From the NCBI RefSeq assembly GCF_018274385.1, contig NZ_JAAFYZ010000011.1, positions 1-64,000 on the forward strand: a DNA stretch of 64,000 bases, in the 5' to 3' direction. Source of the stretch: Catenulispora pinistramenti. Lineage in GTDB: Bacteria; Actinomycetota; Actinomycetes; Streptomycetales; Catenulisporaceae. This document shows, one piece after another, positions 4,093 through 53,186 of this stretch. Position numbers and translations under genes: made by a program. The notes below the pieces were generated by a model. The model worked only from the letters and a program-made list of their open reading frames with translations, made no database searches and was not told the origin of the DNA. Each line of letters starts with the position of its first letter. Within the stretch, counting starts at the first letter, position 1.

Positions 4093-4803
4093 ATGCGGGT
4101 GTCACTGCGGCACGGTCGATGGGCGGTGCTGGCGGCGGTCGGCGTGCTGGCGCTGGCGGGCTGCGGCTCGTCCGGCAGCTCGAAGGGGTCCACGGCCAGC
4201 GGGTCCGGCGGCACGTCCGCGGCCGGCTCGTCGTCCAGCGCCGCTTCGGGGGCCAAGAGCTGGTCCAAGGAACCGGCGATGACCATCGACCCGGGCAAGA
4301 AGTACACGATGGTCCTGCACACCTCGCAGGGCGACATCACGATCGCCATGGACGCCGCCAAGGCCCCGCACGCGGTGAACTCCTTCAACTTCCTGGCCGC
4401 GCAGCACTTCTTCGACGGCAGCTACTGCCACCGGCTGTCCACCTCGGCCGGCCTGCAGATGCTGCAGTGCGGCGACCCGACGGCCGGCGCCACCCCGAAG
4501 GCCACCGACGGTCAGAACGGTCCGGGCTACCAGTTCCAGGACGAGAACCTGACCGGTGCCACGTACCCGGCCGGGACCGTGGCGATGGCCAACGCCGGAC
4601 CGAACACCAACGGCTCGCAGTTCTTCCTGGTCTTCGGCGACAGCCAGCTCCAGCCGGCCTACACCCCCTTCGGCACCATCACCGACGGCATGGGCGTCCT
4701 GGCCCACGTCGCCTCCGGCGGCATCAGCGACCCGGGCCAGGACGGCACCGGCCGCCCGACCATCCCGGTCGAGCTCAAGTCGGTCTCGGTCACCGCGAGC
4801 TGA
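4093..4803 (+). CDS. Lipoprotein peptidyl-prolyl cis-trans isomerase (cyclophilin type)
   Basis: A 236-residue protein. A Lys/Arg-containing start, hydrophobic core and lipobox LALAGC (Cys about residue 20) mark a lipoprotein anchored outside the membrane. A Ser/Gly/Ala-rich linker of about 40 residues follows. The cyclophilin domain (about 68-235) carries HRLS with the catalytic Arg, the QCGDP segment, GTVAMANAGPNTNGSQFF and the YTPFG segment. Two cysteines flank the active-site region and could form a disulphide in the oxidising exterior. It should catalyse proline isomerisation in secreted proteins. It stands alone between the SDRs and the sigma operon. Confidence 0.9.
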   Translation: MRVSLRHGRWAVLAAVGVLALAGCGSSGSSKGSTASGSGGTSAAGSSSSAASGAKSWSKEPAMTIDPGKKYTMVLHTSQGDITIAMDAAKAPHAVNSFNFLAAQHFFDGSYCHRLSTSAGLQMLQCGDPTAGATPKATDGQNGPGYQFQDENLTGATYPAGTVAMANAGPNTNGSQFFLVFGDSQLQPAYTPFGTITDGMGVLAHVASGGISDPGQDGTGRPTIPVELKSVSVTAS

Positions 4804-4959
4804 CCGGAGCGCGCGGCGATGTGAAACGCGCGGCGATGTAACCCGGAATCCCGTCGGCCGGTGTGTCCAGTGATGAACTGGCCACCGACCGATGAGGGGC
4901 GGGGAATGGAAGGGACGATCGCCGAACGGCGATTGCGGATGCGAGGCGGGGGAGCGGCG

Positions 4960-5466
4960 GTGAAGGCCGCGCAAGAGGAGTCGTTCCGCGAGTTCGTCGA
5001 AGGCTCCTGGCACCGCCTGCTGCGCACCGCGTACCTGCTGACCGGCGACCACGGCGCTGCCGAGGACCTGGTGCAGACCGCGCTCATGCGCACCTACCGG
5101 CACTGGGGCCGGATCGAGGACTACGAGGCCCCCGAGGCCTACGTCCGCCGGGTGATGGTCAACGTCAACATCTCGGCGTGGCGGCGCCGCAAGGCGGTCG
5201 TGCACGTGGTGGCCGAGCCGCCGGAGCCGGCGGCCGGGGCGGGGGATCATCAGAACACGTACGCGGTCCGCGACGAACTGTGGCGCGCGGTCTGCGCGAT
5301 GTCGCCGCGCATGCGCACCGCCTTCGTGCTGCGCTATTTCGAGGACCTGACCGAGGCCGAGGTGGCCACGGCGATGGGCTGCGCGGTCGGCACGGTGAAG
5401 AGCCAGATCTCGCGCGGGCTGACGAAGCTGCGCAACGACCTGCAAGCCGAGGGGAGTTTCCGATGA
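4960..5466 (+). CDS. SigE-family RNA polymerase sigma-70 factor (ECF type)
   Basis: About 168 residues. Region 2 contains [22 protein letters not shown] and EDLVQTALMRTYRHW; region 4 contains LRYFEDLTEAEVATAMGCAVGTVKSQISRGL, the usual helix-turn-helix of this actinobacterial family. GTG 4960 with GGGGGAG about 6 bp upstream gives the normal family length. ATG 4906 is an alternative that would add 18 residues. The stop codon overlaps the start of the next gene (ATGA), so the sigma factor and its membrane partner are translationally coupled. The partner probably controls its activity. The stimulus is unknown. Confidence 0.88.
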   Translation: MKAAQEESFREFVEGSWHRLLRTAYLLTGDHGAAEDLVQTALMRTYRHWGRIEDYEAPEAYVRRVMVNVNISAWRRRKAVVHVVAEPPEPAAGAGDHQNTYAVRDELWRAVCAMSPRMRTAFVLRYFEDLTEAEVATAMGCAVGTVKSQISRGLTKLRNDLQAEGSFR

Positions 5467-6848
5467 GTGCCGACAAGCCGATGCGCGCCGACAAGCCGGC
5501 GAGCGACCCCGGCGACGAAGTCCTGGAGAACGAGTTCCGCGCCATGTTCGCCGAACGCTCCGAGACGGTGCGGATGGCGACGGCGCCGTACGCGTCGGTG
5601 CGTCAGCGGATCGCCGCGGCCCGCCGCAAGCGCCGGCTGCGGCTCGGCAGCGCCGGCGTCGCGTTCGCGGTGGCGGCGGTCGGGATCGGGGTGTGGGCCG
5701 CGGTGCCGGGGCGGCATCAGGCCGCGGTGGCACCGACGACCACGACCCCGGCGTCCGGCGCCCCCGCGAAGTACCTGTACGCCGACGGCCGCACCGAGAT
5801 CCCGGCCGGGCCGTTGCAGCAGGCCGCGCTGGCCTGGCTGCGGGCGAACTACCACGGCGACCTGAGCGGGCTCACCGTGGTGACCACCTTCGACCAGGGC
5901 GCCCAGGCCGCCGCGAACGTCTCACCCGGCGACAGCGGCGTCGCGGTCGTCGACCCGCGGACCGGCGCCGTGCTGGGGCTCGGCGGAGCCTGGGACACGC
6001 CGCTGCCCGTCGCCGACCTCATGAAGCCGATCGTGCTGGCGGCGGCGTTCCAGACCGGGCACTACACCCCCGATTCCAAGGAGCCGCTGGACGCTCAGAA
6101 CCACCCGGTGTACTGGCCCACCGGGAGCGAGAAGAACCCCCTGACCTTCATGTCGGGAAACCAACAGTTCAACTGGCCGCCGGAATCACCCAGCACCACG
6201 ATCCACGACATCGACGTCACGCTGACCCAGGCCGCCGAGTCGGGCGCCAACGAACCGTTCGCGCAGCTGGAACTCGCGGCCGACGTGGGGCCGTCCGCGG
6301 TCTACCAACTCGCCATGCGCATGGGGATGCCGAAGAGCAGCCCGGAATTCTTTCCCGTGCCGGCGCTGGTACTGGGGATGGCGCAGGAGACCCCGTTGAC
6401 GATGGCGAGCGTCTACGCGACCTTCGACAACGGCGGTATCCGGCACGACCCCAGGATGGTCGGGCAACTGCTCGCCGCGAACGGGGGGAACGTGTGGATG
6501 CCGCCCGACACCTCCGCCCGGGTCCTGTCGCAGAGCACTGCGGACCAGGTCACCGCCGTCCTGCACGCGCAACTCTTCAACGGTCCCACCGTCATCGGCG
6601 TGAATTCCATCGCGGCCGCGGACCGCTCCGGGTTGTGGGCCGCCGCCGGAGCCCCGAGCTCGGAGGAGGCGGCCTGGCTCACGGGGGGTGATGCGCACTA
6701 CGTGGTCTCGGTGGGGGCGTTCTCGAAGACCTCCGCCGGCCCGCTCAGGCCGATGGGCGACGATCACCATGGCGGCGTCGATATCGGTAGTGAGTACGCC
6801 GGGTCGATCTGGGCCGATGTGATGGGGAGGCTGCCGACCCGCGACTGA
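5463..6848 (+). CDS. Membrane anti-sigma-like protein with inactive penicillin-binding transpeptidase domain
   Basis: 461 residues: a cytoplasmic N-terminus of about 55 residues, one membrane segment near 62-81, a Thr/Pro linker, then an outer domain resembling class A PBP transpeptidases. Fold landmarks survive: KPIVLAAAF near 188, NEPFAQL near 263, LGMAQETPLTMASVYATFDNGG near 304-325, and AAWLTG near 403. All three catalytic motifs are broken: SxxK has Asp at 185 instead of Ser, SxN has Gly at 261, and KTG reads AAG at 394-396. It overlaps the sigma gene by 4 bp. The layout fits a sigma-factor regulator that may sense cell-wall material or beta-lactams; that role is inference. Confidence 0.8.
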   Translation: MSADKPMRADKPASDPGDEVLENEFRAMFAERSETVRMATAPYASVRQRIAAARRKRRLRLGSAGVAFAVAAVGIGVWAAVPGRHQAAVAPTTTTPASGAPAKYLYADGRTEIPAGPLQQAALAWLRANYHGDLSGLTVVTTFDQGAQAAANVSPGDSGVAVVDPRTGAVLGLGGAWDTPLPVADLMKPIVLAAAFQTGHYTPDSKEPLDAQNHPVYWPTGSEKNPLTFMSGNQQFNWPPESPSTTIHDIDVTLTQAAESGANEPFAQLELAADVGPSAVYQLAMRMGMPKSSPEFFPVPALVLGMAQETPLTMASVYATFDNGGIRHDPRMVGQLLAANGGNVWMPPDTSARVLSQSTADQVTAVLHAQLFNGPTVIGVNSIAAADRSGLWAAAGAPSSEEAAWLTGGDAHYVVSVGAFSKTSAGPLRPMGDDHHGGVDIGSEYAGSIWADVMGRLPTRD

Positions 6849-6923: not shown

Positions 6924-7111
6924 CTAGACGATTGATTCCTGGGGGTACCGGCGCGAAACGGCTCGCAGCCTCTGGCTGCCAAGGGCTCAGTAGCGGCGCC
7001 TGGCCGCCCCGGCCGGCCACCCGAAGCCAACCAGGCTGAGGGCGGCCGTCCGTGACGCCCATGCTTGCTGCTGAGCCGTTTCGCAAGACTGCTTGTCAGC
7101 TGGCGGTCCTG
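6924..7111. repeat. Inverted-repeat element, copy A, left part
   Basis: Begins CTAGACGATTGATTCCTG and is about 90% identical over most of its length to 47334-47490. It has one extra block of about 25 bp, carrying a small hairpin, near 6963-6990. It breaks off at 7111, where the 3-kb insertion starts; its missing right end is found at 10182. It contains no convincing gene. It looks like a MITE-like non-autonomous element or a structured repeat. Confidence 0.8.
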
Positions 7112-7294
7112 CTAGGAGCGTGGGTCAGTAACACCAACCTGCTGTCGGGGTGTTGAGAAAAGTGCTCAGCGTATAGATGAATGTGCTCAGTCGTGGGGCC
7201 TTGGAGACGGCCCTGCCGACCGTGGCGGTGCCCGCTGGTGTTCATGACTCGCTGGCGGTCTGGACCTGGAGCGCGCGGGCGTAGGCTCTCAGGA

Positions 7295-7690
7295 ATGCGG
7301 ATCGGCGAGCTGTCAAAGCGCACGGGCGTGAGTCCGCGCTCACTGCGGTACTACGAAGAGCAAGGCTTGCTGGCCAGCTCACGCTCCGATGCGGGGCAGC
7401 GTCACTATTCCGATGCCGAGGTCCAGCGCGTGTCGCTCATCCGACGGCTGTTCGACGCGGGTATGTCCAGCCGGGTGATCGCGTCTGTGCTGCCGTGTGT
7501 GGACGTCCCCGGTGACCTGGGTATCGCCGAGGAGACGTTCACGGCGATGATGCGCGAGCGCGAGCGGATCGACGCCGATATCGCGCACCTGATCGAGACC
7601 CGGGATGCGCTCGACGTGCTGATCAAGGGCAATAGTCGACACCGGGCGGAGCTGTCCATGACGCCGGAACCGACGCACGGTCGCCCCTGA
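7295..7690 (+). CDS. MerR family transcriptional regulator
   Basis: 131 residues starting at ATG 7295 with AGGA just upstream. The N-terminus MRIGELSKRTGVSPRSLRYY is the diagnostic MerR helix-turn-helix, followed by EEQGLL, the RHYSDAEVQRVSLI wing and a coiled dimerisation helix near 80-110. No cysteine cluster for metals is visible, so it is not a mercury-type sensor. It lies at the left end of the insertion element, 106 bp before an oxidoreductase gene. The intergenic palindrome between the two is its likely operator. Close relatives often regulate an adjacent reductase in response to electrophiles; this is inference. Confidence 0.9.
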   Translation: MRIGELSKRTGVSPRSLRYYEEQGLLASSRSDAGQRHYSDAEVQRVSLIRRLFDAGMSSRVIASVLPCVDVPGDLGIAEETFTAMMRERERIDADIAHLIETRDALDVLIKGNSRHRAELSMTPEPTHGRP

Positions 7691-7714
7691 TGCTGTGACC
7701 TGCGTCTCAGTCGC

Positions 7715-7746
7715 TTGCCTTTGACATCGATGTCAGGGGTGAGGAT
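7715..7746 (+). promoter_or_regulatory. MerR-type promoter with palindromic operator
   Basis: The perfect 14-bp palindrome TGACATCGATGTCA (7722-7735) lies between a possible -35 TTGCCT (7715) and a weak -10 GAGGAT (7741), 20 bp apart. Long spacing with a dyad inside the spacer is the hallmark of MerR-activated promoters. It lies 51 bp before the oxidoreductase start. Confidence 0.55.
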
Positions 7747-7796
7747 GTCGACAGCGCCCGGAATAACCGGGTCGGTCATCCGGAAGGCGGCACGGT

Positions 7797-8720
7797 ATGG
7801 GACAGGCGTGGGGTTTCGGAAAGTATGGCGGGCCCGAGGTGCAGGAGTTCTTCGACCGTCCCGATCCCGTCCCCGGTCGTGGCGAGGTGTTGATCCGGGT
7901 TGACGTCGCCGGCGTGAACCCCCTGGACCACCTGCTGCGCTCGGGTCTGGTTCCCGGACTCGACGGCGGGCGTCCGTTTCCCCGCGTGCTGGGCATGGAG
8001 GCAGCGGGAACCGTTCTCGCCCGGGGCGAGGACGTCGACGGGCTCGAGGTGGGTGACGCGGTCTTCGGCTTCGCGCTTACCGGTGGCGGCACCTATGCCG
8101 AGACGACGGTGCTGTCCGCGCCCAACACCGCGCGCATTCCGGCGGGCCTGTCCGCGACCGTGGCGGCAACGCTGCCGGTAGCCGGGACGACCGCGGTGGA
8201 CGCGCTCGACCAGCTCGGCCTGCCCGCTGGTGCCACGGTCCTGGTCAACGGGGTCGGGGGTGGGGTCGGCCTGGCCGTCGCCCGGCTGGCCATCGGGCGC
8301 GAGCTGCGTGTGATCGGCACCGGGAGTACCGCCAAGCGCGAGCACGCCGAGGCCATCGGGGTGCGGTTCATCGACTACACCGCCGAGGACGTCGTCGCCG
8401 CGGCACGCGAGCTGGTTCCGGACGGCTTCGACGGGATCGTCGACCTGGCCGGAGGCACCTCGCTGCGGACGGTCGCCCCGCTGGCTCGGGAGCCCCGCAA
8501 CGTCATCGCGGTGGGTGATATGTCCGTACCCGATCTCGGTGGGCGTTTCGTCGAGCGTCGCCTCGACCGCGAGAACCTGGAACGGTCCGCCCAGCTGACC
8601 CTCGACGGAGTCCTCGCGCCCGTGATCACCGCGGTCCATCCACTCTCCGACGCCCCAGCCGCCCTCGCCACCGTCGAGAACGGTCACACTGCGGGCAAGG
8701 TTGTCATCAAGGTGGCATGA
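7797..8720 (+). CDS. Zinc-independent NADPH:quinone oxidoreductase (MDR family)
   Basis: 307 residues of the medium-chain dehydrogenase superfamily. The GroES-like domain includes GRGEVLIRVDVAGVNPLDHLLRSG and the MEAAGTV segment, then the Rossmann domain has VLVNGVGGGVGLAVARLA as cofactor-binding loop near residues 150-165. The catalytic-zinc and structural-zinc cysteines of alcohol dehydrogenases are absent, which points to quinone or enone reduction with NADPH. Start ATG 7797 precedes a normal family N-terminus. As a passenger of the insertion element beside a MerR regulator it could give protection against an electrophile, but the substrate cannot be read from sequence. Confidence 0.88.
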   Translation: MGQAWGFGKYGGPEVQEFFDRPDPVPGRGEVLIRVDVAGVNPLDHLLRSGLVPGLDGGRPFPRVLGMEAAGTVLARGEDVDGLEVGDAVFGFALTGGGTYAETTVLSAPNTARIPAGLSATVAATLPVAGTTAVDALDQLGLPAGATVLVNGVGGGVGLAVARLAIGRELRVIGTGSTAKREHAEAIGVRFIDYTAEDVVAAARELVPDGFDGIVDLAGGTSLRTVAPLAREPRNVIAVGDMSVPDLGGRFVERRLDRENLERSAQLTLDGVLAPVITAVHPLSDAPAALATVENGHTAGKVVIKVA

Positions 8721-8798
8721 GAAGTTCCCGGCCCAGGCGTACGCCGACACCCATCAGCTATTCGTGATCTTTCATATGGGAAGATCTCGGTATGCCTG

Positions 8799-10035
8799 GT
8801 GGGGATGGCTTGTTCTCATCTGGCGGGGTTCGTTGCCGAGTTGGTCGACGGGGTGTTGGACCTGTCCCCGATCCTGGCGTCCTACACCGAGAGCCGCGGG
8901 TTCCCGCCGTATGACCCGCGGCTGATGATGCGGCTGCTGATCTACGGCTACACCACCGGGGTGCGGTCCTCGCGGACGATCGCGCGCAAGTGCGTGGACG
9001 ATGTGGCGTTCCGCTACCTCGCGGCGCGCTGGACGGCACAAAGCTTGAGGCAAACGCCTCCAAACACAAGGCGATGAGCTACGCCCGGCTGGTAGACAAG
9101 GAGGAGCAGGTCGAGGCGGAGATCGCGGAGCTGGAAGCCGCCGCGGCCGCGCTGCTGGCCGACGCCGCCGCGACCGACGCCGCCGAGGACGCCAAGTTCG
9201 AAGCGAACAGCAAGGACACCGACCTGCCCGCCGAGCCGGACCGCAGGGAGAAGCGCCTGGCCCGGTTGCAGGCCGCCCGCGCGCAGATCGAAGCCGAGGC
9301 CGCCGAGCAGGCGCGCATACACGCCGAAGACAAGGAGCGCCGACGCCGGCAGCGATCCTGCGGCGACGACCTCGCGGCCGTTGAAGCCGCCAGCGACAAG
9401 GCCGCCGCATCCGCCAGACCGAAGAACAAGGCGCAGGCCAACTTCACCGGCCCGGAATCGCTGATCATGAAGAACAACGACGGCGCCTACATCCATGCCT
9501 ACAACGCCCAGGCCGTCGTGGATGACGCGCACCAGATCATCACCGCCGCCGACGTCACAACCAACCCGGCCGACGCGCTGAACTACACCCGGATGCTCGA
9601 CCAGTCCGCCGCAACACCGGCATCCACGCACGTCAGGTGTTGGTCGACGCAGGCTACTGCTCCGAGGCGAACCTCGCCGCCGCAGCCGAGCGCACCGCCG
9701 AGCACGGCACCGACACCTTCATGGCCACAGGACGGCTGGCCCACGATGAGGAGGTCCCGGCCGCCCCGCGTGGACGCATCCGCAAAGACGCCACGCTGCG
9801 CGAGCGCATGGCCCGCAAGCTGCGCACCAAGCCCGGACGCGCCGCCTACTCCCGCCGCAAAGCCATCGTCGAAACCGTATTCGGTCAGATCATGATCTGC
9901 CAGAACGGCCGCGAACCCCTGCTGCGAGGCGAGGCCGGAGCTCGTGGGGAATGGCGGCCGCTCGCCGCCTGCCACAACCTGCGCAAGATCTTCCGCCACA
10001 CCGGATGCGCCGGGCTGGCCGCCGCCCGGGCCTGA
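8799..10035 (+). pseudogene. IS1182-like transposase, decayed
   Basis: Recognisable pieces in order: ASYTESRG..YDPRLMMRLLIYGYTTGVRSS (8870-8980), ALDGTKLEANASKHKAMSYARL (about 9027-9090), a Glu/Ala-rich coiled region, then VDAGYCSEANL and the C-terminal YSRRKAIVETVFGQ. Three lesions are visible. The N-terminus is missing before 8799. An internal deletion with frame change at about 9025 joins YLAAR to ALDGTK, losing the NAPDHRTIARFR-type segment. A one-base loss near 9612-9616 shifts frame before VLVDAGYC. It therefore cannot make active transposase. It sits at the right end of the insertion element, next to the 15-bp terminal repeat. Confidence 0.85.
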
Positions 10036-10181
10036 CAGCCCGGCGGCACCCCGCCAGGCTGACTCGACAACACACCAGACCCAGAGACAAACGCCCGGGG
10101 CCCTCCTCGACATCGTCACCAGCCCCGACCCAGTCGTCACGAACCCTCGACGGCTTGTCCGCTACTGACCCACGCTCCTAG

Positions 10182-51420: not shown

Positions 51421-51939
51421 ATGGACATCGAAGATGAGCGGCGGTTCCGGGAGCTCGTCGGCGCCCGGTCGAAAGCGTTGCTACAGACCGCCTACTTGCT
51501 GACCGGCGATTGGGAACACAGCCGCGACCTGGTGCAGAGCGCGCTGGCGGGACTGGCGCGCAGGTGGGGCCAGCTGGCCGAGCCGGGGCGCGCCGAGGCC
51601 TACGCGCGCAAGGCGATCTACCACGCGCACGTGGACCGCACGAGGCGGCTGTCGTGGCGGCGCGAACGAACCACGGCGACGGTGCCGGACACGCCCGCGG
51701 ATCTGTCGGACCCGGCCGATCTGGTCGCCTCGCGCCAGGACGTGATCGCGGCCCTGCGCAAGCTGCCGCCGGGGCAGCGGGCCGTGGTCGTGCTGCGGTA
51801 TTTCGAGGATCGGACGGACGAGGACATCGCCGAGGTGCTGGGGATCTCCACCGGCACGGTGCGCAGCCAGCGCTTCAAGGCGCTGAAGGCGTTGCGCGTG
51901 ACCGTGGGCAGCGACTTGAAGGAGGAGACGGCATGGTGA
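51421..51939 (+). CDS. SigE-family RNA polymerase sigma-70 factor (ECF type), second
   Basis: 172 residues from ATG 51421, with GAGGAGG 6 bp upstream. Region 2 has [41 protein letters not shown], and region 4 has [40 protein letters not shown]. It is the same family as the sigma factor at 4960-5466 but clearly diverged. It overlaps the next gene by 7 bp, again a sigma/membrane-partner operon. The upstream neighbour, DNA ligase, is divergent with about 147 bp between starts. Confidence 0.9.
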
Positions 51940-53186
51940 CGGAGCAGGACCTGCGGGAGGCGTTGGCCGACGTCGTCGAGGACCCGGCAGCGGACGCGCT
52001 CACGCTGGGGCTGTCGGACCGGGCCCTGGCCGAAGCCGGCACCGGCACGTACTGGCGGCGGGCGATGACGGGCAAGCGCGGGAAGCTGGTGCCCGGGATC
52101 GCCATCGGCTCGGCCTTCGTGGTGGCCGCGGCGGTCGGCGTGGCGGCACTCGGCGGCGGTTCCGGCGGCGGTTCGACGATATCGACGGTCGTGGTGCCCA
52201 ACACCTCCGCGGATCCGGTGGGCCAGTCGGCGCTGACGGAGTTCGGGGCGGAGTGTTTCAACGGGCACGGGCCGAAGCTGGCCCTGTCCTATGTCTGGGA
52301 CCCGGCGACGCGGCAGTATCGGGCCGTTCCCGGTGACGTGTCGACTTCCTTCCAGGCATCGCCGGACGGGAAACAGGCGCTGGTGCAAAAGGGTCTATCG
52401 CAGATGTCGCAGTCATGGGCGGCCGGGGACTGGTCGGCAGCGGTGGCCGGGCAGCTGACGCCGCACCCGATCGCGGACGCCTTCGGCATGCTGTGGACCA
52501 CCGACGGCAAGGAAGTGGTGACCCAGCTCGCCTGGGACTCGGCGGGTAAGTCCCAGGCCATTGTGGTCAAGAACAAGACGGCCGACTTCTACGACCCGGC
52601 GTCGGGCCGCCGCCTGGCCTCGGTCCCCATCCCGCCACAGGTGCTCGCGATGGCGGCGAGCAGGCAGTGGTCGGTGCAGCAGTGGCAGGGCGACCATGAC
52701 AGTGTCCTGTTCCCCCTGTTGCGCAGCGACGGCAAACAGCTGGTCTTCCTGAACGCGCAGGGTGCCACTGTCCGAACCCTGACATTCGAAGACGGTCTGC
52801 CCGCGACGATGCTGAATCAGTCGGAAGCGGCCGAGGTGGCCGCGATCTCCCCCGACGGCCGCTACCTCGCCGAGTTCGACAACGGACAAGTCGCGACCTT
52901 CGACCTCAACGCCGGCGGTAAGCGCATCGGCATCATGGGCGGCTGGATGAGCTCCTACAACGGCTGGACCGGCGACAACCAGATCGTCACCGCGACCGAC
53001 GAGTCGCGGTCCACCGGGTCGCAGAAAGCCCCCGGCCACAGCCCGCTGTACCGGGTGCTGTCCCCGGAGCTGAAGGTGATGCAGGAGACGAGGTTCGTTC
53101 TGCCGTCCGACCCGAACGGGAATTGCTCGACGTGGCCCACGACGTGGGCGCCGAAGGCACAGTTCCCGGGGGCGTTCGTGCCCTGA
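51933..53186 (+). CDS. Membrane partner of SigE-family sigma factor, propeller-like outer domain
   Basis: 417 residues from ATG 51933, which overlaps the sigma stop; GGAGGAG is upstream. A short cytoplasmic N-terminus (about 1-45) is followed by one membrane segment (about 52-70) and a Gly/Ser linker. The outer domain has repeated WD/TolB-like strands (SPDGKQALVQKG, TTDGKEVVTQLAWDS, SPDGRYLAEFDNG). The arrangement suggests an anti-sigma-type sensor. No zinc-binding anti-sigma motif is visible, so the mechanism of sigma control is not evident. Confidence 0.7.
   Translation: MVTEQDLREALADVVEDPAADALTLGLSDRALAEAGTGTYWRRAMTGKRGKLVPGIAIGSAFVVAAAVGVAALGGGSGGGSTISTVVVPNTSADPVGQSALTEFGAECFNGHGPKLALSYVWDPATRQYRAVPGDVSTSFQASPDGKQALVQKGLSQMSQSWAAGDWSAAVAGQLTPHPIADAFGMLWTTDGKEVVTQLAWDSAGKSQAIVVKNKTADFYDPASGRRLASVPIPPQVLAMAASRQWSVQQWQGDHDSVLFPLLRSDGKQLVFLNAQGATVRTLTFEDGLPATMLNQSEAAEVAAISPDGRYLAEFDNGQVATFDLNAGGKRIGIMGGWMSSYNGWTGDNQIVTATDESRSTGSQKAPGHSPLYRVLSPELKVMQETRFVLPSDPNGNCSTWPTTWAPKAQFPGAFVP

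Follow-up and report, generated by a model that had tools for sequence, protein, structure and literature searches.

Why would a bacterium place, directly behind a sigma factor gene, a membrane protein whose outer domain resembles a cell wall cross-linking enzyme that has lost its catalytic motifs? The question is raised by a locus near the beginning of a 64,000-nucleotide stretch of Catenulispora pinistramenti DNA (NZ_JAAFYZ010000011.1, positions 1 to 64,000; here called the window). At 4906 to 5466, a gene on the forward strand, as are the promoter and the P0001 features located below, encodes a SigE-family extracytoplasmic function (ECF) sigma factor of 186 residues, counted from a putative start codon. 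It is followed at 5463 to 6848 by an open reading frame (ORF) for a 461-residue protein, P0001. P0001 is a predicted single-pass protein that, by homology, carries the transpeptidase domain of a class A penicillin-binding protein (PBP) outside the membrane, and the features described below suggest that its role is probably to monitor the cell wall rather than to help build it.

A transpeptidase ectodomain with altered motifs

The direct link between the two genes, which the first-pass annotation of this DNA had noted, is borne out by their arrangement. P0001 begins within the stop of the sigma gene through a 4-nucleotide ATGA overlap, and the two genes adjoin in eight orthologous loci; in the ninth (genome G008), a contig break divides the pseudoenzyme, its start following the sigma gene at the end of one contig and the remainder opening another. 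The sigma gene scores 192.5 bits against the SigE-family model TIGR02983, for which the cutoff is 141.55, and also matches Sigma70_r2 and Sigma70 r4_2. In P0001, a single hydropathy peak rises above 1.2 (2.00 at residue 63, compared with 1.11 for the best 19-residue window elsewhere), predicting one transmembrane helix at about residues 63 to 81 (5649 to 5705). Residues 15 to 62 (5505 to 5648), which end in an Arg-rich juxtamembrane stretch, form a presumed cytoplasmic and presumably sigma-binding module, and residues 130 to 455 (5850 to 6827) form the pseudo-transpeptidase ectodomain, as delimited by Pfam, alignment, and profile comparisons.

Several profiles agree with the earlier claim that this ectodomain keeps the signatures of a class A PBP transpeptidase. 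Pfam Transpeptidase (PF00905) matches P0001 at an E value of 1e-7 (31.9 bits, against a curated cutoff of 22.1) and all nine orthologs at 0.01 or better, with a best value of 9.5e-14. The class A PBP model TIGR02074 matches at 1.1e-17, with 64 bits, far under its full-length cutoff. Among solved structures, a profile built from the orthologs finds PBP1B at 1e-15, and its hhalign comparison with the class A PBP of Catenulispora itself gives a probability of 100 and an E value of 6.6e-51 over P0001 residues 136 to 451. Transpeptidase was the sole match in a Pfam scan of the 461-residue protein; there was no transglycosylase domain, so P0001 is not itself a class A PBP, and no RsgI N-terminal domain was matched.

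We aligned 52 transpeptidase domains, comprising 9 pseudoenzymes, 10 class A PBPs of the genus (referred to as the parent PBPs), and 33 other PBPs. In this alignment the three altered motifs fall at the residues named by the first-pass annotation. Asp185-Leu-Met-Lys188 (6015 to 6026) replaces S-T-F-K, and all nine pseudoenzymes read A-D-[LT]-M-K-P where all ten parents read GSTFKP. Gly261-Ala-Asn263 (6243 to 6251) replaces S-x-N; the Ser has become Gly or Ala in every ortholog, and the Asn is retained in eight of the nine and is Asp in the ninth. Ala394-Ala395-Gly396 (6642 to 6650) replaces K-T-G, a motif intact in 10/10 parents and 33/33 other PBPs and lost in 9/9 orthologs, which carry AAG, MAG, MAA, or MPG. 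About 15 residues immediately before SxxK are also missing from all nine orthologs relative to the parent PBP. The reported loss of Ser and Lys was therefore right for the Ser of SxxK, the Ser of SxN, and the Lys of KTG, but not for Lys188 of SxxK, which is retained in all nine; the Asn of SxN, Asn263, is likewise kept in P0001.

These sites have not fared alike among the orthologs. The former SxxK zone (residues 183 to 197) ranks 2nd of 285 windows in conservation, the SxN zone ranks 41st of 287, and the KTG zone ranks 254th of 287, among the least conserved. The alignment is therefore read as a loss of motifs shared by the orthologs, then constraint on Asp-x-Met-Lys-Pro, while the KTG strand drifted. 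Since the usual Ser is absent in nine of nine, the sequence rules out its acylation, and the proposal that the design differs from active acylation of the BlaR1 type holds to that extent. The KTG strand of PBPs normally holds the carboxylate of the ligand. Because that motif is both lost and drifted, classical binding of beta-lactams or D-Ala-D-Ala by the ectodomain appears unlikely, which weakens, for the usual mode of binding, the earlier suggestion that P0001 may still bind stem peptides or beta-lactams.

Ancestry of the pseudoenzyme and its sister pairs

Orthologs of P0001 occur in nine of the ten Catenulispora genomes searched, counting the window's own; in the tenth (G010, 77% complete), the match was limited to the parent PBP. 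The closest named relatives found, by whole-protein identity, are in C. pinisilvae NH11 (87%) and C. rubra DSM 44948 (60%). The first-pass annotation had named close homologues with intact motifs as the mark of a single decayed gene. No ortholog among the nine carries the SxxK, SxN, and KTG motifs of an active transpeptidase, all of which are present in the ten parent PBPs, and a conserved pseudoenzyme is the better description. Four genomes from two other genera of Catenulisporaceae gave no match at an E value of 1e-10. The ortholog profile, run against 391 sampled genomes from the order and 394 from the class with four candidates scored per genome, found no additional ortholog, at a depth where a distant case could be missed: ten genomes of the order matched at 1e-45, all of Catenulispora, and at 1e-30 the other matches listed for the class all lay in open frames of at least 770 residues, the ordinary size of a class A PBP. 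A widespread family was considered and rejected, the profile search of these sampled order and class genomes having added no member outside Catenulispora.

A maximum-likelihood tree of the 52 domains, rooted on a distant PBP (L005), recovers the nine pseudoenzymes as monophyletic with an ultrafast bootstrap (UFBoot) value of 100. The ten parent PBPs are also monophyletic (UFBoot 95), the two groups form a joint clade (100), and PBPs from two other genera of the family branch next outside (97). A single duplication within the Catenulispora lineage would account for this tree, and the ectodomain would then be an old copy of the class A PBP found in the genus (L002, on contig 21 of genome G000, and its orthologs). 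The parents share 32 to 35% identity with P0001 in the alignment. Besides the SxxK and KTG motifs already described, SLN is intact in 10/10 parents, and the two of the ten that were scanned have both Transgly and Transpeptidase domains. No relative of the sigma gene was found around the parent PBPs, in stretches of up to about 4.2 kb.

The coupling of a SigE-family sigma factor to a membrane partner recurs across the genome. The SigE-family model had 57 matches at 1e-20, 40 of them above the family cutoff; the gene after each of these 40 was surveyed, and the 17 below the cutoff fell outside the survey. A similar membrane partner follows 35 of the 40 sigma genes, starting between −62 and +74 nucleotides from the sigma stop and consisting of about 40 to 86 residues, an Arg-rich end, a hydrophobic helix, and a variable outer domain. 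Partners were called from gene position, the hydropathy peak (1.34 to 2.57, lowest in L109), and inspection by eye, with start codons taken as the furthest upstream in frame. The five loci not counted were L104, L115, L128, and L142, which lacked a partner of this layout, and L140, which was cut by a contig end. The 51 residues visible after the sigma gene of L140 (G000 contig 149) resemble a partner N terminus.

By sequence comparison, the N termini of the partner set are related: in a leave-one-out test, 28 of the 35 were matched by at most 15 of 300 shuffles. The profile of P0001 orthologs placed 13 of the 34 other partners within the top 5 of 100 shuffles, where about 2 were expected, the best being L111, L118, and L108. 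Most partners had no Pfam match, and the four outer domains that scored above cutoff all belong to envelope-machinery families. Besides the Transpeptidase domain of P0001, they include a YceG/MltG domain in L109 (G000 contig 637, 5.4e-46), a Thioredoxin_4/DSBA domain with its CPPC kept in L106 (contig 650, 1.9e-16), and a SecDF_P1_head domain in L113 (contig 63, 3e-6), a bare pass at 27.6 bits against a cutoff of 27 that recurs at an E value of 0.01 in all six aligned relatives. The genome also encodes a free MltG-like protein (L203) with an ordinary-looking N terminus; the MltG-like outer domain shares 80% identity with it and so likewise appears to have been grafted from an envelope enzyme. 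In this case the graft shows no visible sign of being dead, since it keeps the SIAEGE stretch. In L149 (G011 contig 7), also an MltG-like partner, a TAA lies inside the matched stretch and SIAQGE replaces SIAEGE. The window itself holds a second SigE-family pair, with a sigma match at 51436 to 51909 and a partner of the same layout at about 51933 to 53183, whose outer domain gave weak WD40/beta-propeller-like Pfam matches (best 0.0064, below cutoff).

Ahead of the sigma gene lies a predicted SigE-type operon promoter, TGTAACC-N15-CGGTGT (4837 to 4864), and this element, TGTAACCCG, is identical across all nine orthologous upstream regions. Of 39 SigE-family upstream regions, 8 carry TGYAACC on the sense strand and 31 lack it, and none carries it antisense; 500 first-order Markov shuffles gave a mean of 0.58 and a maximum of 3. 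The motif points to autoregulation of the P0001 operon and of some sister operons.

Proposed circuit and rival explanations

We propose, with moderate confidence, that the operon is a self-contained envelope-sensing circuit, in which a dead-transpeptidase regulator of the sigma factor, most likely an anti-sigma factor, reads peptidoglycan synthesis without being acylated. The N-terminal module, of a type shared with the 34 other partners, would tether the SigE-family sigma factor to the membrane. The outer domain, a catalysis-stripped copy of the genus's class A PBP domain, would follow peptidoglycan synthesis by means of surfaces retained from that enzyme and not through acylation; candidate ligands are the nascent strand, the stem peptide, or a protein that partners the parent PBP. 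A signal at the ectodomain would free the sigma factor through conformational change or regulated proteolysis, and the freed sigma factor would drive transcription from the TGTAACCCG promoter of its own operon, and perhaps of a small number of further genes. The operon, the topology signals, the homology, the pattern of motif loss and conservation, the ancestry, and the conserved promoter are shown by the sequence comparisons; we infer binding of the sigma factor, its inhibition as opposed to activation, the nature of the ligand, how the sigma factor is released, and which genes it controls. Because no known anti-sigma domain was recognized in any partner, inhibition is argued from gene position and membrane topology.

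Several results weigh against this proposal. As a single sequence in the leave-one-out test, the N terminus of P0001 was equaled by 139 of 300 shuffles, and a profile-profile comparison of the P0001 ortholog N termini with the whole partner set gave a probability of 42%. Pfam scans found no known anti-sigma domain in P0001 and none among the other 34 partners. A strict form of the promoter pattern, run on five genomes, found the operon in four of them, missing the operon promoter of G011, and gave four other matches (three in G000 and one in G006) against three for a reversed control, which is chance level. Across the five genomes it revealed no cell wall target and no clear gene behind the other matches: downstream of two of the four there was no ATG-started ORF longer than 60 residues within 500 nucleotides, and the other two were followed only by ORFs of 65 to 67 residues. 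AlphaFold2 runs on the full-length protein and on residues 120 to 456, with three sequences each, gave mean predicted local distance difference test (pLDDT) scores of 31.6 and 30.0, and a scan of viral contigs yielded no usable homologs for structure prediction; because both models were unusable, the transpeptidase fold is assigned from homology. Finally, by the ratio of nonsynonymous to synonymous substitution rates (dN/dS), the ectodomain evolves faster than most neighboring genes. The ratio, which comes from the NG86 method alone and is probably biased upward by high GC content, was 0.57 to 0.70 in seven comparisons with the window gene and 0.51 to 0.75 in six other pairs, compared with 0.24 to 0.41 for the sigma gene, 0.08 to 0.23 for a flanking SDR-like gene, 0.25 to 0.36 for the DUF885-like gene, and 0.28 to 0.57 for a fourth flanking gene.

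Such rates, with the loss of catalytic motifs, would also suit a decaying duplicate whose outer domain no longer has a function. We disfavor this explanation as very improbable, because the gene is kept in nine of ten genomes at the same locus with the same replacement, no ortholog contains an internal stop, and the former SxxK zone is among the most conserved parts of the protein. The related idea of a single decayed gene was disfavored on its conservation in nine of ten genomes and the identical replacement at the same site. What constrains the old pocket could be a covalent lock, with Asp185, Lys188, and Asn263 forming an intramolecular Lys-Asn isopeptide triad or entering some other Asp-based reaction. 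In active PBPs the SxxK Lys and the SxN Asn are adjacent in the pocket, and in the orthologs Asp occupies the Ser position throughout, the Asn has changed only once and only to Asp, and the SxN Ser and KTG have given way to the replacements listed above. A plain Asp-Lys salt bridge accounts for the same alignment columns, however, AlphaFold2 gave no usable pocket model, and a lock of this kind seems highly improbable to us. The same conservation, with Lys188 kept in nine orthologs and Asn263 in eight, might also be expected of a noncovalent receptor whose altered pocket reversibly binds beta-lactam antibiotics or the D-Ala-D-Ala termini of stem peptides. Against such a receptor stand the loss of Ser and KTG in every ortholog, the low rank of the KTG zone, and the deletion before SxxK, and in the sigma-P and PbpP system, beta-lactam-dependent activation requires the active-site Ser (PMC8092216); we judge it quite unlikely.

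The rival that concerns the other end of the protein is that the partner acts as a positive cofactor or localizer of the sigma factor rather than as an anti-sigma factor. This we consider unlikely, even with the lack of a recognized anti-sigma domain in P0001 or the 34 others and the short, divergent N terminus of P0001 in its favor. A sigma gene with an adjacent membrane partner and autoregulation is a common anti-sigma layout, and a sigma gene, a membrane partner, and an autoregulation-type promoter motif are what this operon presents. Short anti-sigma domains also exist: class II and class III domains are known from CnrY and RsbN, which fall outside the common class I, and RsbN is membrane anchored (PMC8103513). 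A class I anti-sigma protein lies near about 32% of ECF sigma factors (PMC7406223). The likeness of P0001 to CnrY and RsbN is one of description. Neither protein is known to have a transpeptidase ectodomain.

A broader and distinctly speculative idea, to which we give limited credence, is a kind of mimic sensing: Catenulispora may copy the envelope machines that are to be watched and graft the copies onto a membrane module that the SigE partners have in common. The dead transpeptidase, by contending with the parent PBP for its strands or partners, would monitor cross-linking, and sister pairs would watch glycan-strand release (the MltG copy), secretion (the SecD P1 head), and disulfide formation (the DsbA-like domain). 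P0001 would then be a copy without catalysis, retained purely as a reporter.

Known systems and surrounding genes

Known cell wall sensors work by binding fragments, as in the PASTA kinases, or by acylation, as in BlaR1 and in PbpP (PMC8092216). BlaR1 and MecR1 resemble P0001 in having an ectodomain of the penicillin-recognizing fold on a membrane signal protein, but they are multipass metalloproteases that are acylated on Ser and act on a repressor, whereas P0001 is a single-pass sigma partner with Transpeptidase as its sole Pfam match, one hydropathy peak above 1.2, and no catalytic Ser. The tree sister of the ectodomain, the Catenulispora class A PBP, differs in its active motifs and its transglycosylase domain.

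Two published sigma systems share parts of this design. RsgI6 of Clostridium thermocellum, one of several sigma-I/RsgI pairs, has a GH10 outer domain that has very low activity and still binds polysaccharide (PMC4711584). Both it and P0001 pair a sigma factor with a membrane regulator whose ectodomain is enzyme derived and poor in activity, although for P0001 the loss is seen in the sequence, and both belong to sets of paralogous sigma-regulator pairs with differing ectodomains (PMC4711584). The sigma families are different, and P0001 lacks RsgI_N, so that it would work like RsgI6 without being a member of that group. RsgI6 senses extracellular polysaccharide, compared with the peptidoglycan synthesis proposed here, and its GH10 domain is near-dead, whereas P0001 is without all three motifs. 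In Bacillus thuringiensis, PbpP senses beta-lactams for the ECF sigma factor sigma-P, and its activation by beta-lactams needs Ser301 of PbpP (PMC8092216). The sigma-P/RsiP/PbpP system thus also employs a PBP as the sensor for an ECF sigma factor, but PbpP is a separate and active protein, whereas here the transpeptidase is dead and built into the membrane partner.

The first-pass annotation knew of no described case. Among the matches listed in a mainly open-access literature, none described a dead transpeptidase within a sigma regulator or dealt with the partners of SigE-family sigma factors, which is weak evidence of absence; sigma systems with a PBP sensor and with a near-dead ectodomain, on the other hand, are in print (PMC8092216, PMC4711584). 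Coupled to a sigma factor, a conserved transpeptidase that works without acylation could give a readout of the cross-linking step itself, and the parent enzyme in the same cell would be a ready-made control. The 35 pairs, some with ectodomains from envelope machines, allow a test of whether bacterial sensors arise through duplication of the machine they monitor. An answer would point to functions for the large SigE family, for which the matches listed included no partner studies.

Around the operon, in a locus that is syntenic among the orthologs, labels given by eye place SDR-like genes upstream and a DUF885-like gene with its neighbor downstream. Between the pseudoenzyme and the DUF885-like gene, at about 7100 to 10140, the window also contains a MerR-like regulator, a quinone-oxidoreductase-like gene, and transposase-like fragments, likewise labeled by eye. 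An insertion in this strain is suggested, because the MerR-like and quinone-oxidoreductase-like genes had no match at 1e-10 in nine other locus stretches. Just upstream of the sigma gene, at 4093 to 4803, lies what appears by eye to be a cyclophilin-like peptidyl-prolyl isomerase with a lipoprotein-like signal.

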